IMG/VR virus record: IMGVR_UViG_3300029989_000161
Location: 1 to 22,716 of that record
Source of the DNA: a virus
DNA length: 22,716 bases
Strand: one strand, 5' to 3'
The notes under the pieces were generated by a model that saw only the letters and a program-made list of their open reading frames with translations, made no database searches and had not been told where the DNA came from. The position numbers and the translations under genes were made by a program. Positions within the stretch are counted from its first letter, which is position 1; each line of letters begins with the position of its first letter. Below, in pieces: positions 6,490-21,009 of this stretch.

Positions 6490-6514
6490 TCGCAATTAAA
6501 ACACGCCTTATAAT
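6490..6514 (+). promoter_or_regulatory. TCGC/ACA/-10 phage promoter, copy 1
   Basis: TCGC at 6490-6493, ACA at 6501-6503, TATAAT at 6509-6514, followed by GAAAG. No TTGACA-like -35 box is present. It starts just after the holin stop and serves the gene at 6542. Confidence 0.75.
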
Positions 6515-6541
6515 GAAAGAAATTTGAGAGGAGAAGGCGAA

Positions 6542-6826
6542 ATGATATTTAAGCCAAAAAAGACAGACAGTTTGACGAAAGAAATGGAATCAATAGTAAC
6601 AAAGATGTCACAATTAGAACCGAACACAGATGAATACACTGCGATGGCGAAGAACCTAGCTACACTTTACGATGCAAAAAGTAAAGTAAAAGATCGAAAG
6701 ATTAGCTGGGATCCGATAGTCACAGGTGCATTTAGCTTGTTAGGCATACTGATAATTGTGCTACATGAAGATGTTAACGTGATAACAAGTAAGGCACTGG
6801 GGTTAGTCGTAAAAGGGCGTGTGTAA
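6542..6826 (+). CDS. Small membrane protein of phage end-of-tail region
   Basis: 94 residues with SD GAGAGGAGA before ATG 6542; upstream TTG 6524 lies before the SD and is rejected. Residues 1-55 are charged and helical, suggestive of a coiled coil. One membrane helix covers about residues 59-75 (DPIVTGAFSLLGILIIVL), followed by a conserved-looking tail VNVITSKALGLVVKGRV. I recall similar small membrane proteins in many Gram-positive phages near the lysis genes, without a known role. The gene has its own promoter (6490) and its stop codon lies in the loop of a terminator hairpin, making it the first single-gene cassette. Confidence 0.75.
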   Translation: MIFKPKKTDSLTKEMESIVTKMSQLEPNTDEYTAMAKNLATLYDAKSKVKDRKISWDPIVTGAFSLLGILIIVLHEDVNVITSKALGLVVKGRV

Positions 6827-6845
6827 CAACACGCCTTCCCCTTTT
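6816..6845 (+). terminator. Intrinsic terminator with the stop codon in its loop
   Basis: GGCGTGT (6816-6822) pairs perfectly with ACACGCC (6829-6835). The six-base loop GTAACA contains the TAA stop (6824-6826) of the upstream gene. The tract TTCCCCTTTT follows. A strong 7-bp GC-rich stem; the T-tract is interrupted by C. Confidence 0.75.
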
Positions 6846-6869
6846 CGCATAATTTACAACCCATCTTAA
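6845..6869 (+). promoter_or_regulatory. TCGC/ACA promoter-like copy with a degenerate -10
   Basis: TCGC at 6845-6848 and ACA at 6856-6858 have the standard spacing, but the -10 position (6864-6869) reads TCTTAA. It overlaps the end of the terminator tract and sits 32 bases ahead of a good copy, so it may be a weak or decayed promoter or an extra binding site. Confidence 0.45.
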
Positions 6870-6876
6870 ATTTTCC

Positions 6877-6901
6877 TCGCATATTTTACACGGACTATAA
6901 T
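6877..6901 (+). promoter_or_regulatory. TCGC/ACA/-10 phage promoter
   Basis: TCGC at 6877-6880, ACA at 6888-6890, TATAAT at 6896-6901 followed by GAAAT. It serves the cassette at about 6929. Confidence 0.75.
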
Positions 6902-6928
6902 GAAATTAAATTATTAACAATTGAAGAA

Positions 6929-7141
6929 TTGATAGTTATCAAATCAGAATATACAATGAAGGCATGCGAAGAAGACGGCAAGAATAAGAGAACAAACACA
7001 ATCTTGTGGTACGCTTCACATGCAATATTGATATATAATAGATTTGGTACGACATCAAAGATCGAAAAAGACGTTAAAGAATTTAAACAAACAGTTGGTG
7101 AATTAGTACTTAATTTCAAAGAATTAAAGAATGAAGCTTAG
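6929..7141 (+). CDS. Small helical protein without a visible RBS (start uncertain)
   Basis: Read from TTG 6929 the product is 70 residues; from ATG 6956 it is 61. The frame stays open upstream to about 6899 and would encode KLLTIEELIVIKSEY, which looks like genuine protein sequence, yet no ATG/GTG and no SD lies between the terminator at 6816 and 6956. This is the only gene in the cassette series without an SD. Possibilities are a leaderless message, a rare start codon, or loss of the start region by a small indel. Content: charged helices and a hydrophobic patch around WYASHAILIYN. The C-terminus NEA-stop is dictated by the terminator hairpin. No family recognised. Confidence 0.5.
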   Translation: MIVIKSEYTMKACEEDGKNKRTNTILWYASHAILIYNRFGTTSKIEKDVKEFKQTVGELVLNFKELKNEA

Positions 7142-7154
7142 GCTTCTTTCTTTT
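7133..7154 (+). terminator. Stop-in-loop terminator (GAAGC-TTAG-GCTTC)
   Basis: GAAGC 7133-7137 pairs with GCTTC 7142-7146; the loop TTAG ends with the TAG stop 7139-7141. Beyond one T/T mismatch the flanking A-rich and T-rich stretches can extend pairing. Tract TTTCTTTT follows and its last T is the T of the next TCGC box. Confidence 0.7.
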
Positions 7155-7178
7155 CGCATTTAAAACATAGCCTCTAAT
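7154..7178 (+). promoter_or_regulatory. TCGC/ACA/-10 phage promoter
   Basis: TCGC 7154-7157, ACA 7165-7167, -10 TCTAAT 7173-7178 followed by AGAAA. The first T is shared with the preceding terminator tract. Serves the gene at 7201. Confidence 0.72.
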
Positions 7179-7200
7179 AGAAATTAAAGGAGGAGATAAT

Positions 7201-7353
7201 ATGAAAAAGACTTTTGAAGAAAAATCAGAAAGTGTCGTTTTATTACTATGTCTGGGAGCATCGCTATTTGTAGCGGGTTACTTGGTAGGAAGATTTACGG
7301 CAATATCAGATTTACAAAAAGGATATTTGAATTGTTTTATACCGAAAAATTAA
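7201..7353 (+). CDS. Tiny single-pass membrane protein
   Basis: 50 residues, beginning MKKTFEEKSESVVLLLC, with SD AAAGGAGG (7189-7196) and its own promoter at 7154. One membrane helix spans about residues 12-31 (VVLLLCLGASLFVAGYLVG); a short charged N-terminus precedes it. Function unknown. Unlike its neighbours it stops at TAA 7351-7353, six bases before the GAAGC-TTAG-GCTTC hairpin, so its stop is not in the loop. The DNA from 7350 on is nearly identical to that at the end of the gene at 12332, where it is read in another frame to give KTEA-stop. Confidence 0.7.
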   Translation: MKKTFEEKSESVVLLLCLGASLFVAGYLVGRFTAISDLQKGYLNCFIPKN

Positions 7354-7358
7354 AGACG

Positions 7359-7380
7359 GAAGCTTAGGCTTCTTTCTTTT
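7359..7380 (+). terminator. GAAGC-TTAG-GCTTC terminator, copy outside the reading frame
   Basis: GAAGC 7359-7363, loop TTAG 7364-7367, GCTTC 7368-7372, then TTTCTTTT. The upstream gene already stopped at 7353. The terminal T overlaps the next promoter. Confidence 0.68.
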
Positions 7381-7404
7381 CGCATTTAAAACATTGCCTA
7401 TAAT
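7380..7404 (+). promoter_or_regulatory. TCGC/ACA/-10 phage promoter
   Basis: TCGC 7380-7383, ACA 7391-7393, TATAAT 7399-7404 followed by AGAAC. Serves the gene at 7434. Confidence 0.78.
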
Positions 7405-7433
7405 AGAACTATATTTTAAAAGGAGGTTTTAAA

Positions 7434-7562
7434 ATGTTTTGGGATATTATAGAAAGTAGAGAAGCAATGATCGTAGGATTGTTGTGGTTAATACCATTAC
7501 TAATAGTAGGACTTACATGGGCAAACAAAGATGAAGAAATAGAGTTAGAAGAGGAAGCATAG
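7434..7562 (+). CDS. Tiny single-pass membrane protein
   Basis: 42 residues, beginning MFWDIIESREAMIVGLLW, with SD AAAAGGAGG upstream and its own promoter at 7380. The membrane helix covers about residues 12-29 (MIVGLLWLIPLLIVGLTW); the C-terminus is acidic and ends EEEA-stop. The stop TAG (7560-7562) is in the loop of a terminator variant. Function unknown. It resembles its neighbours in design (one short helix plus charged tail) but not in sequence, suggesting independent cargo in a common expression frame. Confidence 0.7.
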   Translation: MFWDIIESREAMIVGLLWLIPLLIVGLTWANKDEEIELEEEA

Positions 7563-7573
7563 GCTTTCTTTTT
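7554..7573 (+). terminator. Stop-in-loop terminator, ATAG variant
   Basis: GAAGC 7554-7558, loop ATAG 7559-7562 (TAG is the stop), GCTTTC from 7563, then CTTTTT. The stem includes a G-T wobble and can extend into the GAGG upstream. No promoter copy follows, so the gene at 7598 would need read-through. Confidence 0.6.
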
Positions 7574-7597
7574 ATTAAATTTATGGAGGTATTACAA

Positions 7598-7978
7598 ATG
7601 AAAATATCAGATTTTTACACCTTATGTGACGAACAATTAAAAACTTGTAGAGAAATATTAATGCAAAAAAATAAGGAATATTCAACTGATGATAGATTAC
7701 ATACTTTTAAAATGGCAGCAGTATTACAAAACATTAGCACACGTAAAGCAATTATTGGTATGATGGATAAGCATGTTGTATCTATACACTCTATGTGCTC
7801 CGGTAATGAGGAGTATACCCTTGATATATGGGAGGAAAAGATTACTGATAACATCAATTATTTAATACTTTTACGTGCTGTAGTATCAGAAGAAATGCAA
7901 AACCAAAAATCAAATATAGTCATTACCGATGATAATCATGTAAGAGATTATATGAAAAAGATAGAGGAGGAAGCTTAG
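7598..7978 (+). CDS. DUF1599 / Nmad1-like nucleotide-modification-associated protein
   Basis: 126 residues from ATG 7598, chosen because TGGAGG (7584-7589) is well spaced; the upstream in-frame ATG 7583 precedes the SD. The pattern C-R-E-I-L-M-Q-K-N-K-E-Y-S with a later F-K-M-A-A, then MMDKHVVSIHSMC and EKITDNINYLILLRAV, fits the all-helical DUF1599/Nmad1 family found in phages and linked in the literature to nucleotide modification or hydrolysis. Conserved acidic, Lys and Asn positions at E-K-I-x-D-x-I-N-Y are visible. The substrate is not known. There is no promoter copy between the 7554 terminator and this gene. The C-terminus EEEA is set by the terminator hairpin. Confidence 0.72.
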   Translation: MKISDFYTLCDEQLKTCREILMQKNKEYSTDDRLHTFKMAAVLQNISTRKAIIGMMDKHVVSIHSMCSGNEEYTLDIWEEKITDNINYLILLRAVVSEEMQNQKSNIVITDDNHVRDYMKKIEEEA

Positions 7979-7991
7979 GCTTCTTTCTTTT
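7970..7991 (+). terminator. Stop-in-loop terminator (GAAGC-TTAG-GCTTC)
   Basis: GAAGC 7970-7974, loop TTAG 7975-7978 with the TAG stop, GCTTC 7979-7983, tract TTTCTTTT running into the TCGC box at 7991. Confidence 0.72.
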
Positions 7992-8015
7992 CGCATTGTT
8001 TACAACCCCTATAAT
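7991..8015 (+). promoter_or_regulatory. TCGC/ACA/-10 phage promoter
   Basis: TCGC 7991-7994, ACA 8002-8004, TATAAT 8010-8015 followed by AGAAT. Serves the gene at 8046. Confidence 0.78.
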
Positions 8016-8045
8016 AGAATAAAAATTATTAGGAGGATTTATATT

Positions 8046-8306
8046 ATGAACAAAAGTGAAAAAGCATTATTGGTTATTGTAGGTTTAGGAGTAGTAACTA
8101 GTTTGGCAATACTTGTAAAAGGGTATGGACAAATGAGATATTACGATGGACGTATCAGTAAGTATAATGAATTGAAACCAGTTTTGGAAGGAATGCAGAT
8201 GATACTTAATAAAAACAAAAAAGAAGAATTGACTAATCAAGGACGTGAAGAATTATTCTCAGAAGTAGAACGTATCATGGGAATAAGGAAAAACGAAGAA
8301 GCTTAG
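8046..8306 (+). CDS. Small membrane-anchored protein
   Basis: 86 residues with SD TTAGGAGG. A membrane helix lies at about residues 6-25 (KALLVIVGLGVVTSLAILVK); the rest is a charged, helical, probably cytoplasmic domain with a coiled-coil look (residues 40-80). Ends NEEA-stop with the TAG in a terminator loop. It has its own promoter at 7991. I do not recognise a family; the N-terminal anchor plus helical tail resembles other tiny phage membrane proteins. Confidence 0.72.
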   Translation: MNKSEKALLVIVGLGVVTSLAILVKGYGQMRYYDGRISKYNELKPVLEGMQMILNKNKKEELTNQGREELFSEVERIMGIRKNEEA

Positions 8307-8322
8307 GCTTTCTTCTTTATTT
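8295..8322 (+). terminator. Stop-in-loop terminator, extended stem
   Basis: GAAGAAGC 8295-8302 pairs with GCTT (8307-8310) and CTTC (8312-8315), with one bulged T at 8311. Loop TTAG contains the stop TAG 8304-8306. Tract TTTATTT follows. Confidence 0.72.
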
Positions 8323-8346
8323 CGCGTCAATTACACCACCTATAAT
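8322..8346 (+). promoter_or_regulatory. TCGC/ACA/-10 phage promoter
   Basis: TCGC 8322-8325, ACA 8333-8335, TATAAT 8341-8346 followed by AGAAT. Serves the gene at 8375. Confidence 0.78.
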
Positions 8347-8374
8347 AGAATCATATTTTAAGGAGGAAATTAAA

Positions 8375-8611
8375 ATGTCAGATGATAAAATTGTAAAAAT
8401 TGCAGCAGTAACGATTGTTGCGGTAATAGCTATACCTATATTGGTAAAGACAGCTGTTATCGTGGGAAGCGCGACTTATTGCGGAATTACAAATGCAATC
8501 AACACGGCGAAATATAAAAAGAAAATTAAAAAAGGTTTAAAAGATGGAAGCATAGTAGAACGCGATGGCCAATACTTCGAAGTAGAAGTTACAGACATTG
8601 AGGAAGCTTAG
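8375..8611 (+). CDS. Small membrane protein
   Basis: 78 residues with SD TTAAGGAGG. Residues 6-40 are strongly hydrophobic (IVKIAAVTIVAVIAIPILVKTAVIV region), possibly one long or two short membrane helices; a Lys-rich stretch (KYKKKIKKGLKDG, about 49-61) and an acidic end follow. The segment GSIVERDGQYFEVEVTD looks like a small beta hairpin. Ends EEA-stop with TAG in the loop of the next terminator. Own promoter at 8322. Function unknown. Confidence 0.72.
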   Translation: MSDDKIVKIAAVTIVAVIAIPILVKTAVIVGSATYCGITNAINTAKYKKKIKKGLKDGSIVERDGQYFEVEVTDIEEA

Positions 8612-8624
8612 GCTTCTTCTTTTT
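8600..8624 (+). terminator. Stop-in-loop terminator, 8-bp stem
   Basis: GAGGAAGC 8600-8607 pairs with GCTTCTTC 8612-8619 (one G-T wobble); loop TTAG 8608-8611 holds the stop. TTTTT at 8620-8624 follows. No promoter copy comes next, although the ligase gene starts 31 bases downstream. Confidence 0.75.
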
Positions 8625-8655
8625 GCTAACCATATGATTAAAGGAGGTGAATAAA

Positions 8656-9906
8656 ATGAGCATTATTAACAAGGAAGCGCGTATGGCAGATCTAATTGAC
8701 ATTCTGTATGATGCTAGAAGTAAATATTATTCTGGCGAAGAGGAGTCGCCTATTACGGACGCTCAATATGATAGATATTTAGTAGAGTTAGCAAATCTAG
8801 AAGAGGAAACACATACTCGCTTGTACGAATCCCCAACGACAAAAGTTGGTTTTGAAGAACTAGAAGGCGGTAGAATAAAACATTATATGTCCATTCTTTC
8901 GTTAAAAGATACTAAGAATATAGACGATTTGTTATATTTCCTTGGCGAACGAGAAGGAGTATTATCATGGAAACTTGATGGTATGTCTATTGTTTTGTAT
9001 TACTTGGATGGTATATTGCAAAGAGCTGTAAGTCGTGGTGACGGTCATTATGGTAAAGATATCACGAGAAATGTTATACTTATGCGCAATGTACCGAAGA
9101 CCATAAATATGAAATCCATGAAGGGCGAAGTAATTATACGTGGAGAAGGCTGTCTATCTATTAATGAATTTGCCCATATTAAGAAAACTCAAGAGGGAGA
9201 ACGATTCAGCAACCCTCGTAATATGGCCGCAGGGCTTATAAATGCTACTAAAACTTCATCAACCTTATTAAGGCATTTATCCTTTGTTGCTCATTCTGTC
9301 ATATTGTTACAAGGATTACCATGGCATACAACACAAAGAACAGAGGAATTGGCTCACCTAAGAGATTTCGGTTTTAATGTAGTTCCATATTCTAAGGTAT
9401 TAAATTTTGAATTAAAACATCTGATTGAGCATTATACGAACGAAGTAGAAAACTTTGAATTTCCTGTGGATGGGCTCGTGTTGACTCTAAACGATATAGA
9501 ATATGGCAGCTCTCTAGGTGCTACAGCCAGATTCCCTAAGCATAGCATGGCTTTTAAGTGGCCCGATATATCTGCTTTAACTACTGTTATTGGTATGAAA
9601 TGGAGTGTTAGTGGCACAGGATTGATAACACCTGTTGTATTGTTCGACCCCGTGCAACTTGAAGGGACAATAGTTAAACAAGCAAACTTACATTCATTGA
9701 GGATATTCGAAGGATTGGGTATAGGCATAGGCGATAGTTTAGATGTATTCAAGGCCAATAAGATAGTCCCCGAAGTTAAGGAGAACTTGACAAGATCGGG
9801 AACTGAGAAATATCCACGTAAATGCCCATTTTGTGGAGAAGATACAACAGTAATAGATGGTGATAAGACAAGAAAATTATATTGCTATAATTGTGCCGAT
9901 CGATAA
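8656..9906 (+). CDS. NAD+-dependent DNA ligase, short phage form
   Basis: 416 residues, against about 670 for bacterial LigA. It seals nicks using NAD+. The NMN-binding Ia domain is at about 10-65 (SPITDAQYDR). The nucleotidyltransferase domain has the KLDG adenylation site (Lys106), SRGDGHYGKDITRN (127-139), IRGEG (161-165), FSNPRNMAAG (184-193), and AFKWP with Lys301. The OB-fold part has LITPVVLFDP, and a four-Cys zinc finger (Cys390, 393, 410, 413) closes the protein. The HhH and BRCT domains are absent. Motif IV reads DGLVLT (272-277) where LigA enzymes usually have DGVVIK, so that Lys is Thr277 here. Start ATG 8656 follows AAAGGAGGTGA; GTG 8647 lies inside the SD and is rejected. Confidence 0.92.
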   Translation: MSIINKEARMADLIDILYDARSKYYSGEEESPITDAQYDRYLVELANLEEETHTRLYESPTTKVGFEELEGGRIKHYMSILSLKDTKNIDDLLYFLGEREGVLSWKLDGMSIVLYYLDGILQRAVSRGDGHYGKDITRNVILMRNVPKTINMKSMKGEVIIRGEGCLSINEFAHIKKTQEGERFSNPRNMAAGLINATKTSSTLLRHLSFVAHSVILLQGLPWHTTQRTEELAHLRDFGFNVVPYSKVLNFELKHLIEHYTNEVENFEFPVDGLVLTLNDIEYGSSLGATARFPKHSMAFKWPDISALTTVIGMKWSVSGTGLITPVVLFDPVQLEGTIVKQANLHSLRIFEGLGIGIGDSLDVFKANKIVPEVKENLTRSGTEKYPRKCPFCGEDTTVIDGDKTRKLYCYNCADR

Positions 9907-9907
9907 T

Positions 9908-9932
9908 TCGCGAAAATTACACATTATATAAT
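9908..9932 (+). promoter_or_regulatory. TCGC/ACA/-10 phage promoter ahead of leader RNA 1
   Basis: TCGC 9908-9911 within the palindrome TTCGCGAA, ACA 9919-9921, TATAAT 9927-9932 followed by GAAGAG. It begins two bases after the ligase stop and drives the structured leader and the 10088-11314 genes. Confidence 0.78.
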
Positions 9933-10066
9933 GAAGAGAAACATTGTAGTGATACGAATGTAGGTACCGTCCAGTTTGCGAATTGGATACCGAGAGGTAA
10001 GGAAGGTCCCCGCAATGTTTAATAAGAGGTAGTTCGACACTCACCGACATCTCTTCATATTTTTAT
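9933..10066 (+). ncRNA. Structured 5' leader RNA 1 (upstream of DUF6353 locus A)
   Basis: About 130 non-coding bases between the promoter and the SD. Nested pairings by eye: GAAGAGA (9933-9939) with TCTCTTC (10050-10056); AACATTG (9940-9946) with CAATGTT (10013-10019); and inside these a hairpin of GGTA (9963-9966) with TACC (9988-9991), a CCG bulge, then TCCAGTT (9970-9976) with AATTGGA (9981-9987), capped by TGCG. A GTTCGAC segment lies at 10032-10038. The outer stem is followed by ATATTTTTATTT. It could be a riboswitch-like attenuator, a protein-binding operator or a stabilising leader. The first few bases of the outer stem may lie at or just upstream of the transcription start, which weakens that stem. 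Confidence 0.55.
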
Positions 10067-10080
10067 TTCTTGAAAGGAGA
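10066..10080 (+). promoter_or_regulatory. Repeated SD hairpin, copy 1
   Basis: TTTCT (10066-10070) pairs with GGAGA (10076-10080) around a TGAAA loop, using G-T wobbles. The SD of the gene at 10088 is in the 3' arm. Part of a family with the core TCTTGAAAGGAG. Confidence 0.5.
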
Positions 10081-10087
10081 AATAGTA

Positions 10088-10279
10088 ATGTTCACTATGA
10101 CCAAATGGCAAGGACGAATCTACAAAGATGTAGATGGTAAGTTGTATTTTATGACTAAAAATAAAGTTGTTGAATACAAAAATTGCACTAAAGAAACATT
10201 CGTATTTACACCTATCGATAAATTGTCAAAGGAGGAGTATGACGAGTTTCTTAAAGATTCACAATACCCAGGTTATTAA
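10088..10279 (+). CDS. Small protein, first gene of DUF6353 locus A
   Basis: 63 residues, beginning MFTMTKWQGRIYKDVDGKLYF. ATG 10088 is chosen by the AAAGGAG SD; an upstream TTG (10070) falls in the SD hairpin. It looks like a compact mixed alpha/beta fold with two N-terminal strand pairs and a C-terminal helix (KLSKEEYDEFLKD). No membrane helix and no recognised family. It follows leader RNA 1 and is followed 34 bases later by the DUF6353 gene, so it is probably co-transcribed with it. The matching position in locus B (21118) holds an unrelated membrane protein. Confidence 0.7.
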   Translation: MFTMTKWQGRIYKDVDGKLYFMTKNKVVEYKNCTKETFVFTPIDKLSKEEYDEFLKDSQYPGY

Positions 10280-10313
10280 ACTACAAAAGATTAAATCTTG
10301 AAGGGAGTCACAA

Positions 10314-11117
10314 ATGAAAAGTTTTAGTGAAGGTAATGGATTAACTCAAGCAGCAAAAAACCTCGGGGGTGTAATTTCTCAAAATAGTCCGACAATTCTC
10401 ACCGGAATTGCTGTTGCTGGGCTTGTAGGTACGGTTGTGTTTGCGGTTAAAGCAACTCCAAAGGCACTATCTATTATGGATCAGGAGTTGGATAACAGAG
10501 GGTATTATAATGATAGTCTACCCGATATGATATTGCCTGATTTGACGAAGATGGAGATTATTAAATTAACATGGAAATGTTATATCCCGGCAGTATCAAT
10601 GGGCATCATAACCATAGCATGTATCATAAGTGCGAATAATATCTCGTTGAGACGTAACGCCGCACTAGCTAGTCTATATGGTTTGACAGAGGCAGCGTTT
10701 AAGGAATACCAGTCAAAGGTAGTAGAAACTATAGGTAAAAATAAAGAACTAAAGGTTAGGGATGACATATCTGCTGACCGTGTGAAAAATAACCCAATTA
10801 GTAAAAATGAGGTCGTATTTACAGGAAAGGGTAGTGTGATATGTTATGATAGTCTGTCTGGTAGATACTTTAAGAATGATATTGAGCAGATAAGACGTGT
10901 AGTAAATGACCTTAATCATTCTTTAATGAATGATGGATTTATGACCCTAAATGAACTATATTATGGACTTGGTTTATCTGCAAATAAGCTTGGCGACGAA
11001 ATGGGTTGGGATCTTGATAAGGGTTTAGTTGAGATATCGTTTAGTACACAATTAACCGGGGACAACGAACCTTGCATAGTTTTAAACTATGATGTTGTGC
11101 CTAAATTTAGGAGGTAG
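10314..11117 (+). CDS. DUF6353-family phage membrane protein (locus A)
   Basis: 267 residues. It has the family layout as I recall it: an N-terminal helix ending near ISQNSPTILTGIAV, a first membrane helix (about 24-44), a charged stretch, the motif LTWKCYIPAVSMGIITIACIISA containing the second membrane helix (about 81-105), RRNAALASLYGLTE, a helical region with AFKEYQSKVVETIGK, and a soluble C-terminal part with VICYDSLSGRYF and LNELYYGLGL...GW. Both membrane segments are flanked by basic residues. Function unknown. A divergent, longer copy lies at 21301. SD is GAAGGGAG in a weak version of the repeated SD hairpin (10296-10307). Confidence 0.82.
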   Translation: MKSFSEGNGLTQAAKNLGGVISQNSPTILTGIAVAGLVGTVVFAVKATPKALSIMDQELDNRGYYNDSLPDMILPDLTKMEIIKLTWKCYIPAVSMGIITIACIISANNISLRRNAALASLYGLTEAAFKEYQSKVVETIGKNKELKVRDDISADRVKNNPISKNEVVFTGKGSVICYDSLSGRYFKNDIEQIRRVVNDLNHSLMNDGFMTLNELYYGLGLSANKLGDEMGWDLDKGLVEISFSTQLTGDNEPCIVLNYDVVPKFRR

Positions 11118-11122
11118 CTAAT

Positions 11123-11314
11123 ATGCCAGAAATTATAGAAACTGTAGAGCTCACAAGAGAAGAACAAGACGTCATCATAGCAATATCTAAAAGGGTTGGA
11201 TGCGACAGGGATGGGGATATCCTGTCCTTCTTTGTAAAAGAGGATGAGGGAATTTCAAGTCTTATTCCTAGGAGATCAATGACCATTCCGTCCTTCGAAC
11301 CACCAAGAAAATAG
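11123..11314 (+). CDS. Small acidic protein, function unknown
   Basis: 63 residues, SD TAGGAGG overlapping the end of the DUF6353 gene (11109-11115), ATG 11123. Sequence starts MPEIIETVELTREEQDVIIA and has a Pro/Arg-rich C-terminus (PRRSMTIPSFEPPRK). No membrane helix and no recognised motif. Close spacing to the DUF6353 gene suggests it belongs to that operon. The stop TAG at 11312-11314 is immediately followed by the next TCGC promoter. Confidence 0.65.
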   Translation: MPEIIETVELTREEQDVIIAISKRVGCDRDGDILSFFVKEDEGISSLIPRRSMTIPSFEPPRK

Positions 11315-11315
11315 C

Positions 11316-11340
11316 TCGCAAGAATTACATATGCTATAAT
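11316..11340 (+). promoter_or_regulatory. TCGC/ACA/-10 phage promoter
   Basis: TCGC 11316-11319, ACA 11327-11329, TATAAT 11335-11340 followed by AGAAA. Serves the gene at 11377. Confidence 0.78.
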
Positions 11341-11376
11341 AGAAATAAAAATACTATATGAAAAGAGGAAATCATC

Positions 11377-11604
11377 ATGGACGAAAAGAAAGGTACATTG
11401 GTTGAATTCATTAAAGGAAACAAAGGTAAAATCATTAAAGGAGCATTAATTGTTGTAGGCGTGGTAGCGGGGATTGTAATAATCAGAAAGCTATCTAGCG
11501 GAGGCGATGAGCTATTAGATGTGATGGACACTTTGTCACCAGGTGAAGCAATCATGGACGGACTTGGAAACATTGGCGAAGTCGCTGAGAACATAATACG
11601 ATAG
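11377..11604 (+). CDS. Small single-pass membrane protein
   Basis: 75 residues, SD AAAAGAGG. N-terminal charged segment (MDEKKGTLVEFIKGNKGKIIK), then one membrane helix at about 23-38 (GALIVVGVVAGIVIIRK), then an acidic helical tail with several Gly residues. Function unknown. The gene stands alone between its promoter (11316) and a strong terminator hairpin (11615), another single-gene cassette, but this terminator is of a different sequence and does not contain the stop. Confidence 0.72.
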   Translation: MDEKKGTLVEFIKGNKGKIIKGALIVVGVVAGIVIIRKLSSGGDELLDVMDTLSPGEAIMDGLGNIGEVAENIIR

Positions 11605-11670: not shown

Positions 11671-12276
11671 ATGATAAGATACAAAAGCCAAAAAGAAAGA
11701 GAAAAAAGGGAACTTCGTATGCACTATATATGGGCATTCGTATTGATAATACTCATAGCCACCATATTAAACCAGTGTGCAATACATAAAAATACCGAGG
11801 TCATTGCAACCCCTATGACCGTCGAATTAACACATGCGGATATTGAGGATGTCATACCTGTTACGGACGTACGGCATGAGGAACATGAAAAGCTCCAATA
11901 CGGATTCACCGAGAAGGAAATATATCTACTTGCTCAGTTGCTATGTGGAAGTAAGAATATTGATGGCGATGGAGAGTATGACTTTGATTTTATGAACGAA
12001 ATTGATTATGGAGAAGTTGGAAAAGTGCTTGGTGTTATTATGAATCGTATTGATTCTGGTAAGTTTCCAGATAATGTAAAAGACGTTGTACTTGCAAGGA
12101 ATCAGTTCCCAAATACAATGCCTAGAAATATAACAAAAACACCATCAGATAAGGCTTTAAAAATCGTTAGAGAGTGGTGCGGGGCATATGATCATTATGC
12201 TCCAGGAATACAATCTATACCAAGAAATCATATATATTTTAATGGTAATGGTAAGACAAATACCACAAGGTCTTGA
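11671..12276 (+). CDS. SleB-like (Hydrolase_2) cell-wall hydrolase, membrane anchored
   Basis: 201 residues. A Lys/Arg-rich N-terminus is followed by one membrane helix (about 19-38), so the enzyme is probably anchored with its domain outside the membrane. The C-terminal domain (about 78-201) shows the SleB-type order: EKEIYLLAQLL, GEVGKVLGVIMNRIDSGKFPDNVKDVV, NQFPN, and HIYFNGNGKTNTTR at the end. At the place where SleB proteins have their catalytic Glu, this one reads CGS (92-94), with acidic DGDGEYDFD shortly after, so activity is uncertain. It may serve in lysis or in DNA entry. SD TTAAGGAGA lies 3' of the strong terminator; no promoter copy precedes it. Confidence 0.72.
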   Translation: MIRYKSQKEREKRELRMHYIWAFVLIILIATILNQCAIHKNTEVIATPMTVELTHADIEDVIPVTDVRHEEHEKLQYGFTEKEIYLLAQLLCGSKNIDGDGEYDFDFMNEIDYGEVGKVLGVIMNRIDSGKFPDNVKDVVLARNQFPNTMPRNITKTPSDKALKIVREWCGAYDHYAPGIQSIPRNHIYFNGNGKTNTTRS

Positions 12277-12278
12277 TT

Positions 12279-12303
12279 TCGCGGATAAAACACACTCTAT
12301 AAT
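12279..12303 (+). promoter_or_regulatory. TCGC/ACA/-10 phage promoter
   Basis: TCGC 12279-12282, ACA 12290-12292, TATAAT 12298-12303 followed by AGAAT. Starts two bases after the hydrolase stop and serves the gene at 12332. Confidence 0.78.
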
Positions 12304-16214: not shown

Positions 16215-16602
16215 TAGATTTCTTGAGACAATAGGTTTAAAAGAACAAAGAAAAGATGATTGGAAAAAGGCAAATCCTATCATGTTCGGAGACATAGGAA
16301 TGTTAGATTTAGGGTTAACATACGAAGGAAGAAGGGATAATCGAATGAACAACACATGTATTTGCTGTGGCGGGTTGGTGCCCGAGGGAAAACAAGTCTG
16401 CCCAAATTGTGAACAAGCTCCTAAGGTGAACGAACGTTTTATAATTGGCATAGATATAAATGGGCCAGAAGATGAGGCATGCATAGTAGTTTGTAAACGA
16501 TCAGGTCGTGGGACAGTGTTTGTCAACAAGATAACCGGAACTAAAGCAAGGGATCTTTATGAGATTCTAAAGGGTGATGAAAATGAAAAATCTTTTACTT
16601 AA
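16207..16602 (+). CDS. Zinc-ribbon protein with C-terminal module shared with the gene at 12649
   Basis: 131 residues from ATG 16207, supported by AAAGGAGA upstream. The first 46 residues are charged; at residue 47 a second in-frame ATG (16345) with an AAGGAAGAAGGG SD starts the recognisable part: CICCGGLVPEGKQVCPNCE (a zinc ribbon), then FIIGIDINGPEDEACIVV and VFVNKITGTKARDLYEIL, which parallel the end of the gene at 12649. The start is therefore ambiguous and two products are possible. Overlaps the next gene by about 20 bases. Function unknown. Confidence 0.65.
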   Translation: MISRFLETIGLKEQRKDDWKKANPIMFGDIGMLDLGLTYEGRRDNRMNNTCICCGGLVPEGKQVCPNCEQAPKVNERFIIGIDINGPEDEACIVVCKRSGRGTVFVNKITGTKARDLYEILKGDENEKSFT

Positions 16603-16906
16603 ATTTCTACGCTTCATATTTGGAGTTCGTAGCCCTAGCAAAGAGTGGTTAAAAGCGATGAAAGGTGATAAAAATAGCAAATTTATTACCTTTAAAGAAG
16701 CTTATGAAGAGGCGGTTGGAATGTCTATTGACCCTATCTTCTTTATCATTAAGAATATTGATCCATATGAGAAATTTGACCCCATGCATGATAAATTACG
16801 TTTAAAGCCAATTGTTAGTCATTATGGTGATTGGTTAGTGTATCATTCCTACGACTTCAAGTTTAAATGTTATGTGCTGAAAAGAGATACATATGGACTG
16901 GAATGA
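16583..16906 (+). CDS. Phage protein of unknown function
   Basis: 107 residues from ATG 16583 (SD AAGGGTGAT just upstream; ATG 16577 is the alternative). The N-terminus MKNLLLKFLRFIFGVRSP is basic and hydrophobic, perhaps an amphipathic membrane-surface helix. The rest is soluble with many Lys/Asp/Phe/Tyr. It overlaps both neighbours (upstream by 20 bases, downstream by 14). No family recognised. Confidence 0.6.
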   Translation: MKNLLLKFLRFIFGVRSPSKEWLKAMKGDKNSKFITFKEAYEEAVGMSIDPIFFIIKNIDPYEKFDPMHDKLRLKPIVSHYGDWLVYHSYDFKFKCYVLKRDTYGLE

Positions 16907-17057
16907 TATAGGCAAATGTATATACTGGCTTATAGTTGTCGCTATAGCCACCGATTCATTAATCACAAAAAAGAAAGAGCCTATGAGTGTAGTATTTCAA
17001 CTTTGGGCTTCGGTTCTATGTTTTATGCTTTTTACAATGGTCCAATCAATAAAATAA
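16893..17057 (+). CDS. Tiny two-helix membrane protein
   Basis: 54 residues starting MDWNDIGKCIYWLIVVAIAT. Two hydrophobic helices (about 8-24 and 31-50) are joined by the basic turn TKKKEP, so it is probably a helical hairpin. It overlaps the previous gene by 14 bases in another frame; the SD is weak (AAAGAGA). Function unknown; its design resembles small holins or other tiny phage membrane proteins, but nothing specific supports that. Confidence 0.55.
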   Translation: MDWNDIGKCIYWLIVVAIATDSLITKKKEPMSVVFQLWASVLCFMLFTMVQSIK

Positions 17058-17061
17058 ATTA

Positions 17062-17076
17062 TCTCTTGAAAGGAGA
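17062..17076 (+). promoter_or_regulatory. Repeated SD hairpin, copy 3
   Basis: TCTCT (17062-17066) pairs with GGAGA (17072-17076) around TGAAA. It carries the SD of the gene at 17082. Confidence 0.58.
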
Positions 17077-17081
17077 AACCG

Positions 17082-17458
17082 ATGTTTAAAAAGATTAAAA
17101 AAGCAATAAAGACTTTTATACTTCGAATAGGATATTCTAATTGCTACACCGAGCATGAATACACTGGATTTGCATCGATGGGTCTTTGTAGTGGTATATA
17201 CGATGAAAAAACTGGTTATAAATGGATAACCGCTAAATGTGCAGCATGCCCATATTTTGCAGATCCTACTGGCATTGTTGAATATACAAAAAAAGATGTA
17301 GAACTTACAACAAAGGCATGGAATGCTATAAACGAAAAAAAGATGTAGAACTTACAGCAAAGGAATGGAATGCTATAAACGAAAAACAAATCGAAGAAGC
17401 ACATATGTTCTTAAAAGAAGTTGATGCATCTCTTATTATACCAAAGGAGGAATTATAA
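17082..17458 (+). CDS. Cys-containing small protein, interrupted; possible -1 frameshift product
   Basis: In the zero frame the gene stops at TAG 17346-17348 (88 residues). A 47-bp tandem duplication (copies at 17288 and 17335) shifts the frame. At 17336-17342 the sequence is A AAA AAG in the correct phase for -1 slippage; after it the -1 frame runs to TAA 17456-17458, which overlaps the next start as TAATG and contains the next SD, as expected for the true 3' end. The full product would be 125 residues ending KEEL. Visible features: basic N-terminus MFKKIKKAIKTF, and Cys residues in CYTEH, GLCSG and KCAACPYF that may bind zinc. It could be a decayed gene or a functional frameshift. Confidence 0.6.
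17288..17381 (+). repeat. 47-bp direct tandem duplication
   Basis: Copy 1 at 17288-17334 and copy 2 at 17335-17381 differ at only two positions that I can see. Each begins with seven A and reads GATGTAGAACTTACA next. Because 47 is not a multiple of three, the second copy is out of frame. Confidence 0.85.
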
Positions 17459-17829
17459 TGTCACTAATTAAAATTGAACTTGTCGATGCACAAACAGGAA
17501 AAAGACCTAATGAATATAGACATGTTGTCTCGGACGTTGATTTAAAGTCCAAAGAAATTGTTCGAGCAGAATTGCTACAAGCCATAGATATATTTCTAGA
17601 TGGATGTCCAATTGAAAAGGTGCCTCAACGTTCTGGACAATATCCTTGGGGCGATGAAAGACAAGTGGCTATTAATTATGGTAAAACTGTTGAGCCTGAT
17701 GAGTATATCAACAATTACGGACGGTATGTGATTGACTTTGCAAGGAATAACGGCATATCTATAGAAGAGGCTTATGCTCACCCAACAGTTAAGGCACGTT
17801 TTGATGTCTTTAGCTCCACGGGTTATTAG
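17458..17829 (+). CDS. Phage protein with YG..V..FA..GIS.EEA..HP.VKAR C-terminal module
   Basis: 123 residues; ATG 17458 overlaps the -1 frame stop of the preceding gene (TAATG), SD AAAGGAGG. The N-terminal two thirds are soluble with a Pro/Arg/Gly-rich central segment. The C-terminal 40 residues (NNYGRYVIDFARNNGISIEE then AYAHPTVKARFDVFSSTGY) match the end of the gene at 19865 and a motif I recall in many small phage proteins. Function unknown. The next SD (AGGAGGTGA) starts in its stop codon. Confidence 0.68.
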   Translation: MSLIKIELVDAQTGKRPNEYRHVVSDVDLKSKEIVRAELLQAIDIFLDGCPIEKVPQRSGQYPWGDERQVAINYGKTVEPDEYINNYGRYVIDFARNNGISIEEAYAHPTVKARFDVFSSTGY

Positions 17830-17841
17830 GAGGTGATGTTA

Positions 17842-18012
17842 ATGTCTAGTTTAGCCGATCAATATTTGTCAGAGGTGTCTATTAGAAAAAGAAATTTAGA
17901 GACTAAACAACAAATACAAGCTGCCGAGAATAAAAAAGAGCATGAAATGTTAATGCTTTGGGAGAGCTCCTTGGAAAAGATAAAGGAGAAGAGCGATGAA
18001 AAAAAGGCATAG
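17842..18012 (+). CDS. Small helical (coiled-coil) protein
   Basis: 56 residues starting MSSLADQYLSEVSIRKRNLE, with a full consensus SD AGGAGGTGAT. The composition (Glu, Lys, Gln, Leu, few hydrophobic clusters) and heptad-like spacing predict one long helix or coiled coil. It overlaps the next gene by 17 bases. Function unknown. Confidence 0.65.
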   Translation: MSSLADQYLSEVSIRKRNLETKQQIQAAENKKEHEMLMLWESSLEKIKEKSDEKKA

Positions 18013-18283
18013 GCATCTTAGAGATATCAAAAAGCGCAAATATATTAGAAGTGGTGGATGGGAAGATCATATTGACAAGGAATGGATATCCTCAAAAATA
18101 GATGGGCATGGTGGTAGTTATGGATTTACGACTACTACCGGTCCTGTCCAGATTGATTATATAGGAAGTACCTCCAAATGGAAAGTGTTTGGATATAATA
18201 TTACTCTATATTTAAGGTGGATAAAAAGAAGTCTAAAAGCCAGATTCAAACGTAAGATAAAAAGCCCATATGAAAGGTGGTAA
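17996..18283 (+). CDS. Very basic small protein
   Basis: 95 residues, SD AAAGGAGA inside the preceding gene. The N-terminus MKKRHRHLRDIKKRKY and the C-terminus RWIKRSLKARFKRKIKS are very rich in Lys and Arg; the centre (GGSYGFTTTTGPVQIDYIG) is a likely beta hairpin. Such charge suggests nucleic-acid or ribosome binding, but no known fold is evident. In a tight operon with the genes on either side. Confidence 0.62.
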   Translation: MKKRHRHLRDIKKRKYIRSGGWEDHIDKEWISSKIDGHGGSYGFTTTTGPVQIDYIGSTSKWKVFGYNITLYLRWIKRSLKARFKRKIKSPYERW

Positions 18284-18289
18284 TTAAAA

Positions 18290-18784
18290 ATGGAAAGAGC
18301 ATGTAATAAATGTTTACACAGACATAATATAGATACTTGTCCTCCATCTAAATATTGTTATGACACGACGCGAAGAGCTTACTTTATACCAAAAAAGAAG
18401 CCTTTAAAGACACGGATGGCTAATATGCTAGAAGACCATATAACGATTGGTAAGCTAACCATATTTGGGGATAATGCGATGCACTTTGGTTGTCACTATT
18501 GGACAAAGAAGTTTGGTTATATTTGTTGGAGATTACCATTACCTTGTGGTATTGCTGATGTAATAAGATATGGTAAAAAACATCAAAAAATATATTGGAA
18601 ACCGTTATATTTCTGGATAAGTAGGAATGCTACTCCTTGGGCTTCCGTATTCTTTATCGGCAAAAAGGCAAATCCAAAAGAATGGGCACTATCAAGAGTT
18701 AGGAAAGTAGCCTTTGGCTGGAATTATGATTCGGATAACCCAGAACACTACGAACGACTGTTAAAGATACGTAATATACTATGA
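18290..18784 (+). CDS. Zinc-binding phage protein with C..C / CPPSKYC N-terminus
   Basis: 164 residues. The N-terminus has CNKCLHRHNIDTCPPSKYC (about 5-23) and then a YF motif, a pattern I recall in many short phage proteins and likely a zinc site. The remaining 130 residues are aromatic-rich (Trp, Tyr, Phe) with HFGCHYWTKKFGYICWRLPL and KPLYFWISRNATPWASVFF, possibly a beta-rich fold. The stop overlaps ATG 18781 (ATGA). Function unknown. Confidence 0.68.
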   Translation: MERACNKCLHRHNIDTCPPSKYCYDTTRRAYFIPKKKPLKTRMANMLEDHITIGKLTIFGDNAMHFGCHYWTKKFGYICWRLPLPCGIADVIRYGKKHQKIYWKPLYFWISRNATPWASVFFIGKKANPKEWALSRVRKVAFGWNYDSDNPEHYERLLKIRNIL

Positions 18785-18834
18785 GACATGTCGATAGTGT
18801 GGCAAGCATGTGTTATGGAATGATGATAAAAAAC

Positions 18835-18849
18835 TCTCTTGAAAGGAGA
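18835..18849 (+). promoter_or_regulatory. Repeated SD hairpin, copy 4
   Basis: TCTCT (18835-18839) pairs with GGAGA (18845-18849) around TGAAA. It provides the SD for ATG 18856 but lies within a longer in-frame ORF that starts at 18781. Confidence 0.58.
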
Positions 18850-18855
18850 AAAAAT

Positions 18856-19329
18856 ATGAAAGTAATAATTGTAAAGACAAAGACTATATTAAAACCAGAA
18901 GCAATAGCAAAACTTGAGGAACTTATGGCTATATCACTAGATAGAGGCCTAATCGTATTAGATGGCAACTACGAATATGAGGTTGTAGAATTGGATAAGA
19001 TGTATTATGATTCGAGTAAACTATTACGCTCACTTGAAATCTTCCCAGACAAAGGATTAGAATCAGTTGCGGGAAAGTGGATATGGAACTTTCCATCAGA
19101 TTTAAAGAGTGGAGACCCTTATTCATGTATACTGTATAAAGGACCTTCTGTAGTGGAAGCAAAAGCAACATATGATTTCCTTGACAAAAATAAGAAGAAT
19201 GAAACTCCAATTATGTTAGGAGATACTGAATTCGGCGTGTTAATAACCGATTTAAATATGCTTGAAAATTATCTAACAACATTTGACGGTCATGATTACT
19301 CCGTATCATTCTCAGGAGTGTTGGTATAA
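18856..19329 (+). CDS. Phage protein of unknown function (possible longer form from 18781)
   Basis: 157 residues from ATG 18856, which has the repeated SD hairpin. An in-frame ATG at 18781 overlaps the upstream stop as ATGA and would add 25 residues read straight through the hairpin (NSLERRKN), so a coupled longer form cannot be excluded. The protein is acidic and soluble, starting MKVIIVKTKTILKPEAIAKL, with a first alpha/beta part (about 1-50) and a second part around KGLESVAGKWIWNFPSDLKS. No motif recognised. The stop overlaps ATG 19329 (TAATG). Confidence 0.68.
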   Translation: MKVIIVKTKTILKPEAIAKLEELMAISLDRGLIVLDGNYEYEVVELDKMYYDSSKLLRSLEIFPDKGLESVAGKWIWNFPSDLKSGDPYSCILYKGPSVVEAKATYDFLDKNKKNETPIMLGDTEFGVLITDLNMLENYLTTFDGHDYSVSFSGVLV

Positions 19330-19580
19330 TGTGTGAAGGAAGGACTGGTCCTTTTGGAGAAAATCCTCATAATATGTGTATATATTATGAGCCTAGTATA
19401 AATAGGTTCGTTGGCGAGATGGGCGAAATAATTTATAATATTCATAAATATGTGACTCCGTCTCAAATAGCACTATTTACAAGTAAAAAAGAATGTATGG
19501 CATTTGTAGATGCTAGTACACATTCATATATTGTTGAGTTGATTTATCCTGATCCATACGAGAATAAAATAGACTCTTGA
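19329..19580 (+). CDS. Small protein, paralogue of the gene at 22250
   Basis: 83 residues starting MCEGRTGPFGENPHNMC; ATG overlaps the previous stop (TAATG) and no strong SD is visible, suggesting re-initiation. The core CIYYEPSINRFVGEMGEIIY then NIHKYVTPSQIALF resembles the gene at 22250 (WWDEENNMFYDECGQLVSNI then FEMVTPNDLFLF). In both genes the TGA stop lies in the TGAAA loop of a repeated SD hairpin for the next gene. Function unknown. Confidence 0.65.
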   Translation: MCEGRTGPFGENPHNMCIYYEPSINRFVGEMGEIIYNIHKYVTPSQIALFTSKKECMAFVDASTHSYIVELIYPDPYENKIDS

Positions 19581-19587
19581 AAGGAGT
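19573..19587 (+). promoter_or_regulatory. Repeated SD hairpin, copy 5 with a compensatory base pair
   Basis: ACTCT (19573-19577) pairs with GGAGT (19583-19587) around TGAAA. Compared with the other copies the outer T-A pair is A-T, changing both sides together. The upstream stop TGA (19578-19580) lies in the loop. Confidence 0.6.
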
Positions 19588-19593
19588 TTACTA

Positions 19594-19872
19594 ATGAAAA
19601 GAATTTATTGGACATGTCCTGTATGTAACGGTAATTTTGATTATGGTGAGAAATGTGATTGTGGTGAGACTATTCAGGAAACCCCTGGAGTAGCTGAGTG
19701 TTTAGATCCAGTCGAAGAAGTTAAAAATGAAAAAGAGAAATCTATTGAGTCCCTTATTACTGCCGTAGAAAATATGAGAATATCTTTTGATAATTACAGG
19801 AAAGCCATGAACGAAAGTATTACAGCTTTTAATAAGGCCATTAAAGAAGCTGGGGAGAATGCTGATGGCTAG
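19594..19872 (+). CDS. Zinc-ribbon protein with C-terminal coiled coil
   Basis: 92 residues. The N-terminus has CPVC (about 8-11), then CDCGE (about 22-26), likely one zinc site. Residues about 45-90 are a long helix with heptad spacing (SIESLITAVENMRISFDNYR), suggesting a coiled-coil dimer. SD from the repeated hairpin at 19573. It overlaps the next gene by 8 bases. Function unknown. Confidence 0.67.
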   Translation: MKRIYWTCPVCNGNFDYGEKCDCGETIQETPGVAECLDPVEEVKNEKEKSIESLITAVENMRISFDNYRKAMNESITAFNKAIKEAGENADG

Positions 19873-20194
19873 ACGGATCAACATTGGTGATAAGGTTGTA
19901 TGTTGTGTAAGCGGGGTAGTAGGTAAAATACTAAAGTTTTATACCCCAAATTCTTGCGAAGAACAAACCTTAATTGAGACCTTGGACGGGCGTAAATATC
20001 ATGCGCCCACAAGGCTTTTCAATAAGATGACAGTATTATCTACACCTGGATATACAGTGCCAAGTGAGATATTGACCCCATATGGTCAACTTGTAATACG
20101 GTTTTCTAAGAGTCATGGAGTTACATACGAGGAAGCACTTAGACATAATATATGTAAAGCTAGAATACAAATATTCAAAGAAATGGGCATATAG
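19865..20194 (+). CDS. KOW-like domain protein with GxxYEEAxxHxxxKAR C-terminal module
   Basis: 109 residues from ATG 19865 (SD GGGGAG at 19852-19857; ATG 19859 is too close to it). Residues 5-48 (NIGDKVVCCVSGVVGKILKF ... RKYHAPTRLF) form a KOW/SH3-like pattern also seen at 15582. The end (LTPYGQLVIRFSKSHGVTYE then EALRHNICKARIQIFKEMGI) matches the gene at 17458. The protein thus joins two modules found separately elsewhere in the window. Function unknown. Confidence 0.66.
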   Translation: MARRINIGDKVVCCVSGVVGKILKFYTPNSCEEQTLIETLDGRKYHAPTRLFNKMTVLSTPGYTVPSEILTPYGQLVIRFSKSHGVTYEEALRHNICKARIQIFKEMGI

Positions 20195-20203
20195 GAGGAA
20201 AAA

Positions 20204-20716
20204 ATGTATTATGTGAATCTGTTAGTTGCTGTTATGAAATATGTAGAAAATTTACATGACAATGAAATACCAGTATGTAATGAACTTTTAAAATTAAGGG
20301 AGGAACAAAAAATGGGTAATAAATTATTCTTTTGGGTATGTCCGGTATGTGGAAATAAAGACTACAACATGAGTAACATGTGGCTTGCGCCTAGATCATC
20401 CATGACGGAAGACGAGATACGTTCAATATTAGTTGCTATAAATTCTGTTTATGGGTTACCAAAAAGTAAAAATATTGAAGAGTTCGCGGTTGAACTCACA
20501 TTAGATTATGACGGAGATGAGCAGCCACTTATTAATTGGGATAAGGTTAAGGACAATAAAATTAAAACTTTTTATATATGTGATAGAAAAGCCTGTGAAG
20601 ATTGTAGTTACGATTGTCATCACACAAGCGATATCACACACGCAATCAACTTCGAGAAGAGTTTTAATGGAGTGGATTACCGTGAGAAGGAGGATAAAGA
20701 TGGATCTGAAAGATAA
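20204..20716 (+). CDS. Zinc-binding phage protein with CEDCSxxCHHTSD motif
   Basis: 170 residues from ATG 20204 (SD AGGAGG). After a helical 36-residue N-terminus, a second in-frame ATG (20312) with its own AAGGGAGG SD starts the recognisable part: FWVCPVCGNKDYN, then a middle region, then CDRKACEDCSYDCHHTSDIT followed by HAINFEK. The last motif, with four Cys and two His, is one I recall from many phage zinc proteins. The N-terminal 36 residues may be a fused small ORF. The 3' end overlaps the next gene by 17 bases. Confidence 0.68.
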   Translation: MYYVNLLVAVMKYVENLHDNEIPVCNELLKLREEQKMGNKLFFWVCPVCGNKDYNMSNMWLAPRSSMTEDEIRSILVAINSVYGLPKSKNIEEFAVELTLDYDGDEQPLINWDKVKDNKIKTFYICDRKACEDCSYDCHHTSDITHAINFEKSFNGVDYREKEDKDGSER

Positions 20717-20900
20717 AGAACCAGAGATGCAAGACGAAGTAAAGTTTAAAGGTAAGAACTCCGATAAAACAGGTACAGTCATTGCTAAATATCCTCTCGG
20801 AAATGGAAATATTGTTCTGGATATTCGTCTTACCGAGGAGAAGATATATTATGCTTCGCCTGTCGGCAACTGGGAAGTTACAAAAGCGTGTGACGAGTAA
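20700..20900 (+). CDS. Small KOW/SH3-like protein
   Basis: 66 residues from ATG 20700 with SD AAGGAGG; the longer upstream in-frame extension overlaps the previous gene and lacks an SD. The core DEVKFKGKNSDKTGTVIAKY then DIRLTEEKIYYASPVGNWEV shows the G-x-V-x-x-x-G...I-x-Y-x-A-P-x-x-N-W pattern shared with the genes at 15582 and 19865. It is the isolated version of that module. Stop overlaps the next start (TAATG). Confidence 0.66.
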   Translation: MDLKDKEPEMQDEVKFKGKNSDKTGTVIAKYPLGNGNIVLDIRLTEEKIYYASPVGNWEVTKACDE

Positions 20901-20980
20901 TGAAATACCTTGTAGGGCTTCATATTATATATTTTATGATATTAGTAATGTTTCTCGTGCTCTGGTACTGGCCTAAATAG
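20900..20980 (+). CDS. Tiny 26-residue membrane peptide
   Basis: Product MKYLVGLHIIYFMILVMFLV followed by LWYWPK. It is one hydrophobic helix with an aromatic end, coupled to the previous gene by TAATG. There is no independent SD, so it depends on re-initiation. Very short, so the evidence is the coupling and the clean membrane-helix composition; it is directly followed by a promoter copy. Confidence 0.5.
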   Translation: MKYLVGLHIIYFMILVMFLVLWYWPK

Positions 20981-20984
20981 TAAT

Positions 20985-21009
20985 TCGCGGCGAATACACA
21001 GTATATAAT
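20985..21009 (+). promoter_or_regulatory. TCGC/ACA/-10 phage promoter ahead of leader RNA 2
   Basis: TCGC 20985-20988 within the inverted repeat ATTCGC-G-GCGAAT (20983-20995), ACA 20996-20998, TATAAT 21004-21009 followed by GAGGA. It drives the second DUF6353 locus. Confidence 0.78.

Follow-up and report, generated by a model that had tools for sequence, protein, structure and literature searches.

The 22,716-nucleotide (nt) stretch analysed here (the window; positions 1 to 22,716 of IMG/VR record IMGVR_UViG_3300029989_000161) is a virus fragment of 22.7 kb that contains eleven copies of a rigid promoter-like element, and these sites are probably the promoters of the phage's own two-barrel, single-chain RNA polymerase (RNAP), a protein of the family phrog_4291. 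The full element reads TCGC-R-N4-WW-ACA-N5-TATAAT-RRRR with fixed spacing. On sequence grounds this polymerase is the likely reader of the element.

A promoter element of fixed geometry

An earlier note on this DNA had described eleven sites at which TCGC, ACA and a -10 hexamer lie at constant distances and TTGACA is lacking. All eleven were confirmed at the same coordinates and spacing (Table 1), and no -35 TTGACA was found at the sites in the window. A search of both strands with TCGC-N7-ACA-N5-TMTWAW returned exactly these 11 matches, all on the + strand, while dinucleotide shuffles of the window gave 0.00 matches. The exact TATAAT form occurs 9 times in the forward and 0 times in the reverse direction (0.001 expected from base composition), and only 9 of the 32 TATAAT hexamers on the + strand have TCGC and ACA attached. 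The element is longer than had been noted, with added conservation at positions left free in the search, namely a purine following TCGC, WW preceding ACA and a purine tetrad 3' of the hexamer. The TCGC-N7-ACA spacing was found 163 times versus 1 for all other spacings tried, and the same numbers (163 versus 1) were obtained for ACA-N5-TATAAT. When 31 genomes or fragments were searched with a loose pattern, 306 matches were forward and 16 reverse. The TCTAAT at 7154 is a real variant and not a decayed copy, and the copy at 6845, in which the hexamer is TCTTAA and purines do not follow, is probably a relic beside that at 6877.

As promoter activity is deduced here from sequence, the repeats might instead be another kind of element, serving for example in replication, packaging or processing. 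However, they are strictly oriented, closely precede ribosome-binding sites, tRNA-like genes or structured RNAs, closely follow terminator-like hairpins and carry a start-like purine run, and we regard such an element as very improbable.

Distribution in phages and bacteria

The element is common to a large family of phages whose hosts include both Firmicutes and Actinobacteria; a motif search of related phages, which the earlier note had proposed as a check, found it family-wide in phages of both phyla. A DNA-only scan of IMG/VR yielded many contigs (GC contents, ~32-55%) with several copies on one strand. The element was identified in Duffington, Argan, DrGrey, ReqiPepy6 and Camille and, as variants, in phage 1706. 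On the host side, one genome per species was searched for 84,980 bacterial and archaeal species, and the 19-base form gave 4 matches (~2 expected by chance), in agreement with the proposal of a phage-specific element distinct from housekeeping promoters.

The perfect TATAAT in 9 of the 11 window sites is what ordinary strong sigma-A host promoters would show if their flanks were shared through recent duplication within phage genomes. However, the spacer letters vary among the window copies while TCGC, ACA and the spacing remain constant, the same element is present in phages that range from 32 to 59% GC and have hosts in two phyla, and the 19-base form is nearly absent from the bacterial and archaeal genomes; this explanation is thus hardly credible.

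Association with a phage RNA polymerase

A panel of 48 IMG/VR contigs of at least 40 kb was chosen by the DNA motif alone, and phrog_4291 was found in 37 of the 38 contigs with at least two copies and in 4 of the 10 with a single copy. The lone exception in the former group (G036; G and L numbers are our designations) ends at the helicase, just before the position of the VRR-Nuc/Cas4/RNAP genes of its relatives. Among control contigs retrieved with the reversed pattern under the same 40-kb minimum, the polymerase was present in 1 of 22 (Fisher P = 6e-14), and this contig, G074, has a variant promoter. In the opposite direction, 21 of 23 contigs chosen by the polymerase alone carry the motif, in one orientation per contig, and the reversed pattern gave 0 matches in them; the motif is thus restricted to RNAP-encoding phages in both directions. 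In 15 genomes or fragments, a copy is located 930-1090 nt upstream of the polymerase GRYP codon and precedes the VRR-Nuc, Cas4 and RNAP genes, and G074 has its variant copy there. Transcription of each polymerase gene from a dedicated copy does not hold as a general rule: near one lineage, only 7 of 70 loci have such a copy. The polymerase/promoter set is present in at least 250 sequenced phage records, with Gordonia, Arthrobacter, Streptomyces and Lactococcus as hosts, and Vardy carries the same polymerase gene. The phrog_4291 profile also matched 1 of 14 named control genomes, that of Sulfolobus acidocaldarius, which may reflect the helix-turn-helix (HTH) part or a distant match.

The protein comprises ~900 amino acids (aa), with an invariant LSGADFDGD motif of which DFDGD is central, and is predicted to be a two-barrel, single-chain RNAP with a QDE-1-type fold. 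In the AlphaFold2 (AF2) model (pLDDT 80.8, pTM 0.66), residues 229-722 align with QDE-1 (Z 16.4) and with the P74-26/P23-45 phage RNAPs (8f5m, Z 13.9; 8f72, Z 12.7), and the match to the crAss-phage RNAP 6vr4 in the fold search was weak (E 0.44). The invariant motif and the predicted fold together place a DxDGD catalytic triad in a double-psi beta-barrel. The PHROGs label is 'RNA-dependent RNA polymerase' (E 0), and the match to the Pfam RdRP family PF05183 was below its cutoff (E 7e-5 to 0.02). Tandem HTHs were recognised at roughly residues 32-113 near the N-terminus and one further HTH at the C-terminus. Within the first ~30 residues, an invariant HxGxxRxSGRYPWGS was observed (L137 544-3258 and relatives). 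SGRYPWGSG was considered as a shared virion tag and rejected, since among the loci examined it was found only in the polymerase. In the ReqiPepy6 record, the homologue, Lactococcus phage 1706 gp75, is labelled 'structural protein' (a database note only).

Promoter specificity might be conferred on the phage polymerase by a separate small phage protein acting in a sigma-like manner. Jumbo-phage RNAPs such as the AR9 non-virion RNAP (nvRNAP) require a separate promoter-specificity subunit, a precedent for this arrangement, and an 83-aa protein (phrog_4303) is encoded in all 19 genomes compared, directly after the polymerase gene where the order was checked. Nevertheless, this protein gave 0 Pfam matches and has no recognisable DNA-binding domain, whereas the polymerase has its own HTHs at both ends. 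We consider a separate specificity protein somewhat unlikely; it would be a sub-case of recognition by the polymerase system, and the confidences placed in the two overlap.

Structured RNAs, the hexamer and the start site

Two copies in the window directly precede structured RNAs or leaders, designated R1 and R2, and Rfam and tRNA scans of the window gave 0 matches. The R1 closing helix (GAAGAGA/TCTCTTC) starts at the first base 3' of the hexamer and is followed by a T-tract. Among the six R1 sequences, both bases vary in 4 of the 6 modelled closing pairs, and pairing is kept in 97% of cells. R2 is represented by only three distinct sequences, which give thin support. Covariance models built from few relatives recovered members outside the training set (L332 and L325), and the further members have a promoter directly 5' with one exception, a closing helix that begins at hexamer+1 and T-rich sequence beyond its 3' strand. 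The exception, the R1 member in G002, lacks the promoter and keeps the helix, and the helix therefore belongs to the RNA.

When helices abutting a T-tract were scored at all sites, the outer base was located at -3 to +1 in 27 of 52 (~8 expected). A strict Watson-Crick scan for helices at hexamer+1 found 2 of at least 8 bp at 295 sites versus ~1 expected, which are too few cases. The first example set of promoter-adjacent stems had partly been picked for having a stem, and weight is accordingly placed on the T-tract scan and the covariance-model members. RNA synthesis thus probably starts, as read from these helices, at hexamer+1, placing 'TATAAT' at -6 to -1 in a T7-like manner. A sigma-type start 7 nt downstream would halve the helix, and the layout is therefore nearer to T7 than to sigma-70 promoters.

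R1 is a phage RNA family of ~85-125 nt with strong covariation, and its members were observed in the window (9933-10056), L320 (8271-8368), L331 (7788-7887), L332 (9544-9641), L325 (6626-6725) and L302 (8778-8862, - strand). R2 members were observed in the window (21010-21085), L319 (9549-9624) and L332 (15449-15519), and the R2 loop TTCGATTC resembles a tRNA T arm. tRNA-like genes driven directly by the promoter were also seen in G099 (12963), G041 (43555) and ReqiPepy6 (tRNA at 41206), and in two of these cases the 5' leader and 3' trailer pair into a terminator-like helix.

The hexamer differs among lineages. FP_oengus carries an NCGC-N7-NCA-N5-CTTTAT form (13 forward and 0 reverse copies), and the G074 variant is similar; the hexamer is TATTAT in G002, mostly TCTAAT in G100 and TATGGT/TATGAT in Camille. 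The A at hexamer position 2 is the base that is flipped and needed by sigma-70 factors. It is present in 0 of 12 copies in FP_oengus, 1 of 6 in G016, 3 of 15 in G040 and 7 of 19 in G100, and the commonest base at this position is T or C in several lineages (FP_oengus, G100 and G040). The A is thus not conserved because whole lineages carry T or C there; A at position 2 and T at position 6, as conserved for sigma-A, are found in most window copies and not lineage-wide. A TGn extended -10 was found in 12 of 306 related sites, so that the -35 or extended -10 of sigma-70 promoters is not a feature of this class.

These observations bear on an appropriation of the host sigma factor, in which sigma-A holoenzyme would bind TATAAT and a phage activator at TCGC/ACA would replace the -35 contact, as with T4 MotA/AsiA. 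In most lineages, that of the window included, the hexamer matches the sigma-A consensus TATAAT, TCGC/ACA are located near the binding position of MotA-type factors, and the lack of both a -35 and an extended -10 would suit such an activator. On the other hand, the base at position 2 is mostly T or C in the lineages named above, the RNA helices begin ~6 nt too early for sigma-A, and no sigma factor, MotA-like or other activator domain was recognised among the core genes scanned, where core proteins without an assigned function remain. Sigma appropriation is, on balance, clearly unlikely, and the earlier suggestion, in which an activator or modified sigma factor works together with an ordinary -10 box, is probably mistaken. 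The broader suggestion that a phage protein reads the promoter is retained as the best inference, with a phage RNAP and not a sigma factor as the invariant partner.

Proposed transcription system and its weak points

Under recognition by the polymerase, each site would be a complete promoter for the phrog_4291 enzyme. TCGC and ACA, one helical turn apart, would be recognised in double-stranded form, with the HTH domains as the most likely contacts; the AT-rich box would melt, and RNA would start at the purine directly after it. In this layout, the box would occupy about -6 to -1 and TCGC about -25 to -22. The window copies would drive small, mostly single genes and the two structured RNAs between the lysis and replication genes, and in many relatives an additional copy would drive the polymerase-gene operon, generating positive feedback. 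The driven genes may be early genes, and the polymerase may be carried in the virion. As a whole, we advance the following only tentatively: a host-sigma-independent system in two phyla, in which a virion-carried, injected polymerase with its own promoter-reading HTHs would start at hexamer+1 and transcribe first the RNAs, including the structured ones, and then its own gene.

Several points weigh against the polymerase as reader. Its gene is absent from the 22.7-kb fragment, and the copy upstream of the RNAP operon is missing from 63 of 70 loci near one lineage. About 13 gene clusters, the polymerase among them, are common to all 19 compared genomes, and co-occurrence alone does not single out the polymerase because these core clusters are shared by common descent. 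Other core proteins (the 83-aa protein after the RNAP, phrog_4079, 4695 and 4678) could be the reader or assist it. If the polymerase were the reader, the exact match of TATAAT to the sigma-A consensus in most lineages would be coincidental, and the start-site argument presumes that the 5' strand of the helix is made from the promoter and not by processed read-through.

The predicted enzyme, the sharply defined promoter and the predicted start site form one testable set. If correct, they would provide a compact orthogonal promoter/polymerase pair and would call for the reannotation of a protein named only 'helix-turn-helix' or 'RNA-dependent RNA polymerase' in these genomes.

Source phage and features of the window

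The window contains tail genes and an r1t holin followed by many small genes, an NAD ligase and DUF6353 genes (Table 1). Its proteins match gene clusters found in 19 of 19 genomes of one phage family, which includes Lactococcus phage 1706, Faecalibacterium phage FP_oengus and a Gordonia phage, and its core genes (including DUF6353, tape measure and phrog_4079) place the window phage in this 1706-like family. DUF6353 relatives also tie it to Rhodococcus, Arthrobacter, Streptomyces, Curtobacterium and Microbacterium phages. Whole-window megablast against phages gave 0 matches. The nearest near-complete relative, G099 (51.8 kb), shares ~76-93% nt identity with the window in most aligned blocks and has the same promoters plus the polymerase gene.

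The NAD-dependent DNA ligase (8647-9906) has 419 aa with adenylation and OB domains, and its C-terminal end corresponds to about position 416 of 656 in phrog_3869; a close homologue was found in G041 alone among the compared genomes. In the intergenic cassettes at 7134-7153, 7360-7379, 7971-7990 and ~8302-8321, stop codon, terminator-like hairpin and promoter are fused: the gene end ...GAA GCT TAG is located inside the hairpin GAAGC-TTAG-GCTTC, a T-rich stretch follows, and the next TCGC adjoins.

Table 1. Promoter copies, structured RNAs and selected genes of the window (ORF, open reading frame; transcriptional relations are predicted).
Feature	Position	Strand	Description
Copy 1	6490..6514	+	TATAAT, then GAAAG; next ATG 6542 after GAGGAGAAGG
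Copy 2, probably decayed	6845..6869	+	TCTTAA, without purine run; 32 bp upstream of copy 3
Copy 3	6877..6901	+	TATAAT, GAAAT; upstream of ORF 6929-7141
Copy 4	7154..7178	+	TCTAAT, AGAAA; directly 3' of terminator-like hairpin GAAGCTTAGGCTTCTTTCTTT; predicted to drive ORF 7201-7353
Copy 5	7380..7404	+	TATAAT, AGAAC; 3' of hairpin GAAGCTTAGGCTTCTTTCTTT; predicted to drive small ORF, ATG 7434
Copy 6	7991..8015	+	TATAAT, AGAAT; 3' of hairpin GAAGCTTAGGCTTCTTTCTTT; predicted to drive ORF 8046-8306
Copy 7	8322..8346	+	TATAAT, AGAAT; predicted to drive ORF 8375-8611
Copy 8	9908..9932	+	TATAAT, GAAGAG; predicted to drive structured RNA 9933-10056, then ORF with ATG 10088
Copy 9	11316..11340	+	TATAAT, AGAAA; upstream of ORF 11377-11604, then cell-wall hydrolase
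Copy 10	12279..12303	+	TATAAT, AGAAT; just 3' of cell-wall hydrolase gene; next ATG 12332
Copy 11	20985..21009	+	TATAAT, GAGGAG; predicted to drive structured RNA 21010-21085, then ORF with ATG 21118, upstream of DUF6353 21301-22230
Structured noncoding RNA or leader, family R1	9933..10056	+	Covariance-model hits and covariation; no Rfam match
Second structured RNA or leader, family R2	21010..21085	+	Closing helix GAGGAGTAA/TTACTCTTC from hexamer+1, then T-tract
Structural arm	78..6485	+	Tail genes (tape measure end, Dit-like, minor tail) and r1t-type holin; 0 promoter copies
DUF6353 family gene	10314..11117	+	Core marker gene of the phage family, 19/19 genomes
Cell-wall hydrolase gene	11671-12276		
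Second DUF6353 gene	21301-22230		

Comparison with known systems

T7-type promoters resemble the proposed layout in upstream duplex recognition, a TATA melting box directly before +1 and a purine-rich start (GGGAGA), although the enzyme fold is unrelated and the recognition sequence and spacing are different. T4 middle promoters (MotA/AsiA) likewise have a phage box near -30 and TATAAT with no -35, are sigma-70 dependent and start ~7 nt after the hexamer. Unlike in T4 middle promoters, the RNA evidence here points to a start at hexamer+1, and the sigma-critical base of the hexamer is variable. The hosts of the crAss-like phage phi14:2 are Bacteroidales. Its virion RNAP, gp66, is, as summarised in PMC10770324, also a two-barrel DNA-dependent phage RNAP; it is a much larger protein, and virion packaging, shown for gp66, is only a possibility for the present polymerase.

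Promoters of two-barrel single-chain RNAPs are hardly known. SP-beta YonO is a ~100-kDa single-chain RNAP with an aspartate triad from Firmicutes phages (PMC5467207); unlike what is proposed for the present polymerase, YonO transcribes late genes from one start, and the sequence that it recognises was explicitly left open, its promoter being stated as undetermined (PMC5467207). The two-barrel single-chain RNAPs of Thermus phage P23-45 likewise have conserved promoter motifs of their own, and the virion-RNAP motif occurs only in relatives having that RNAP (PMC10770324). The present polymerase model matches the structures of P23-45 gp64 and P74-26 gp62, although the P23-45 motifs are different (AT-rich or GC-rich), the virion RNAP is fused to the tape measure, and the phages belong to another family.

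In Gordonia cluster DJ, Vardy contains five copies of a 50-bp MEME motif including TATAAT (PMC9671010), and Conley contains five copies of a 43-bp MEME motif (PMC10868162). These TATAAT-containing copies are intergenic and mid-genome, as are those of the present class, and the present motif occurs in exact copies in Duffington, a member of this phage group; we infer that the cluster DJ logo and the present element are the same. In contrast to the view taken here, those reports, which concern one cluster, present the motif as a sigma-70 -10 sequence. The earlier note's statement that no such class had been described is thus correct only in part: the promoter class has partly been seen before, and what goes beyond the Vardy and Conley reports is its reader, its start site and its spread across phyla.

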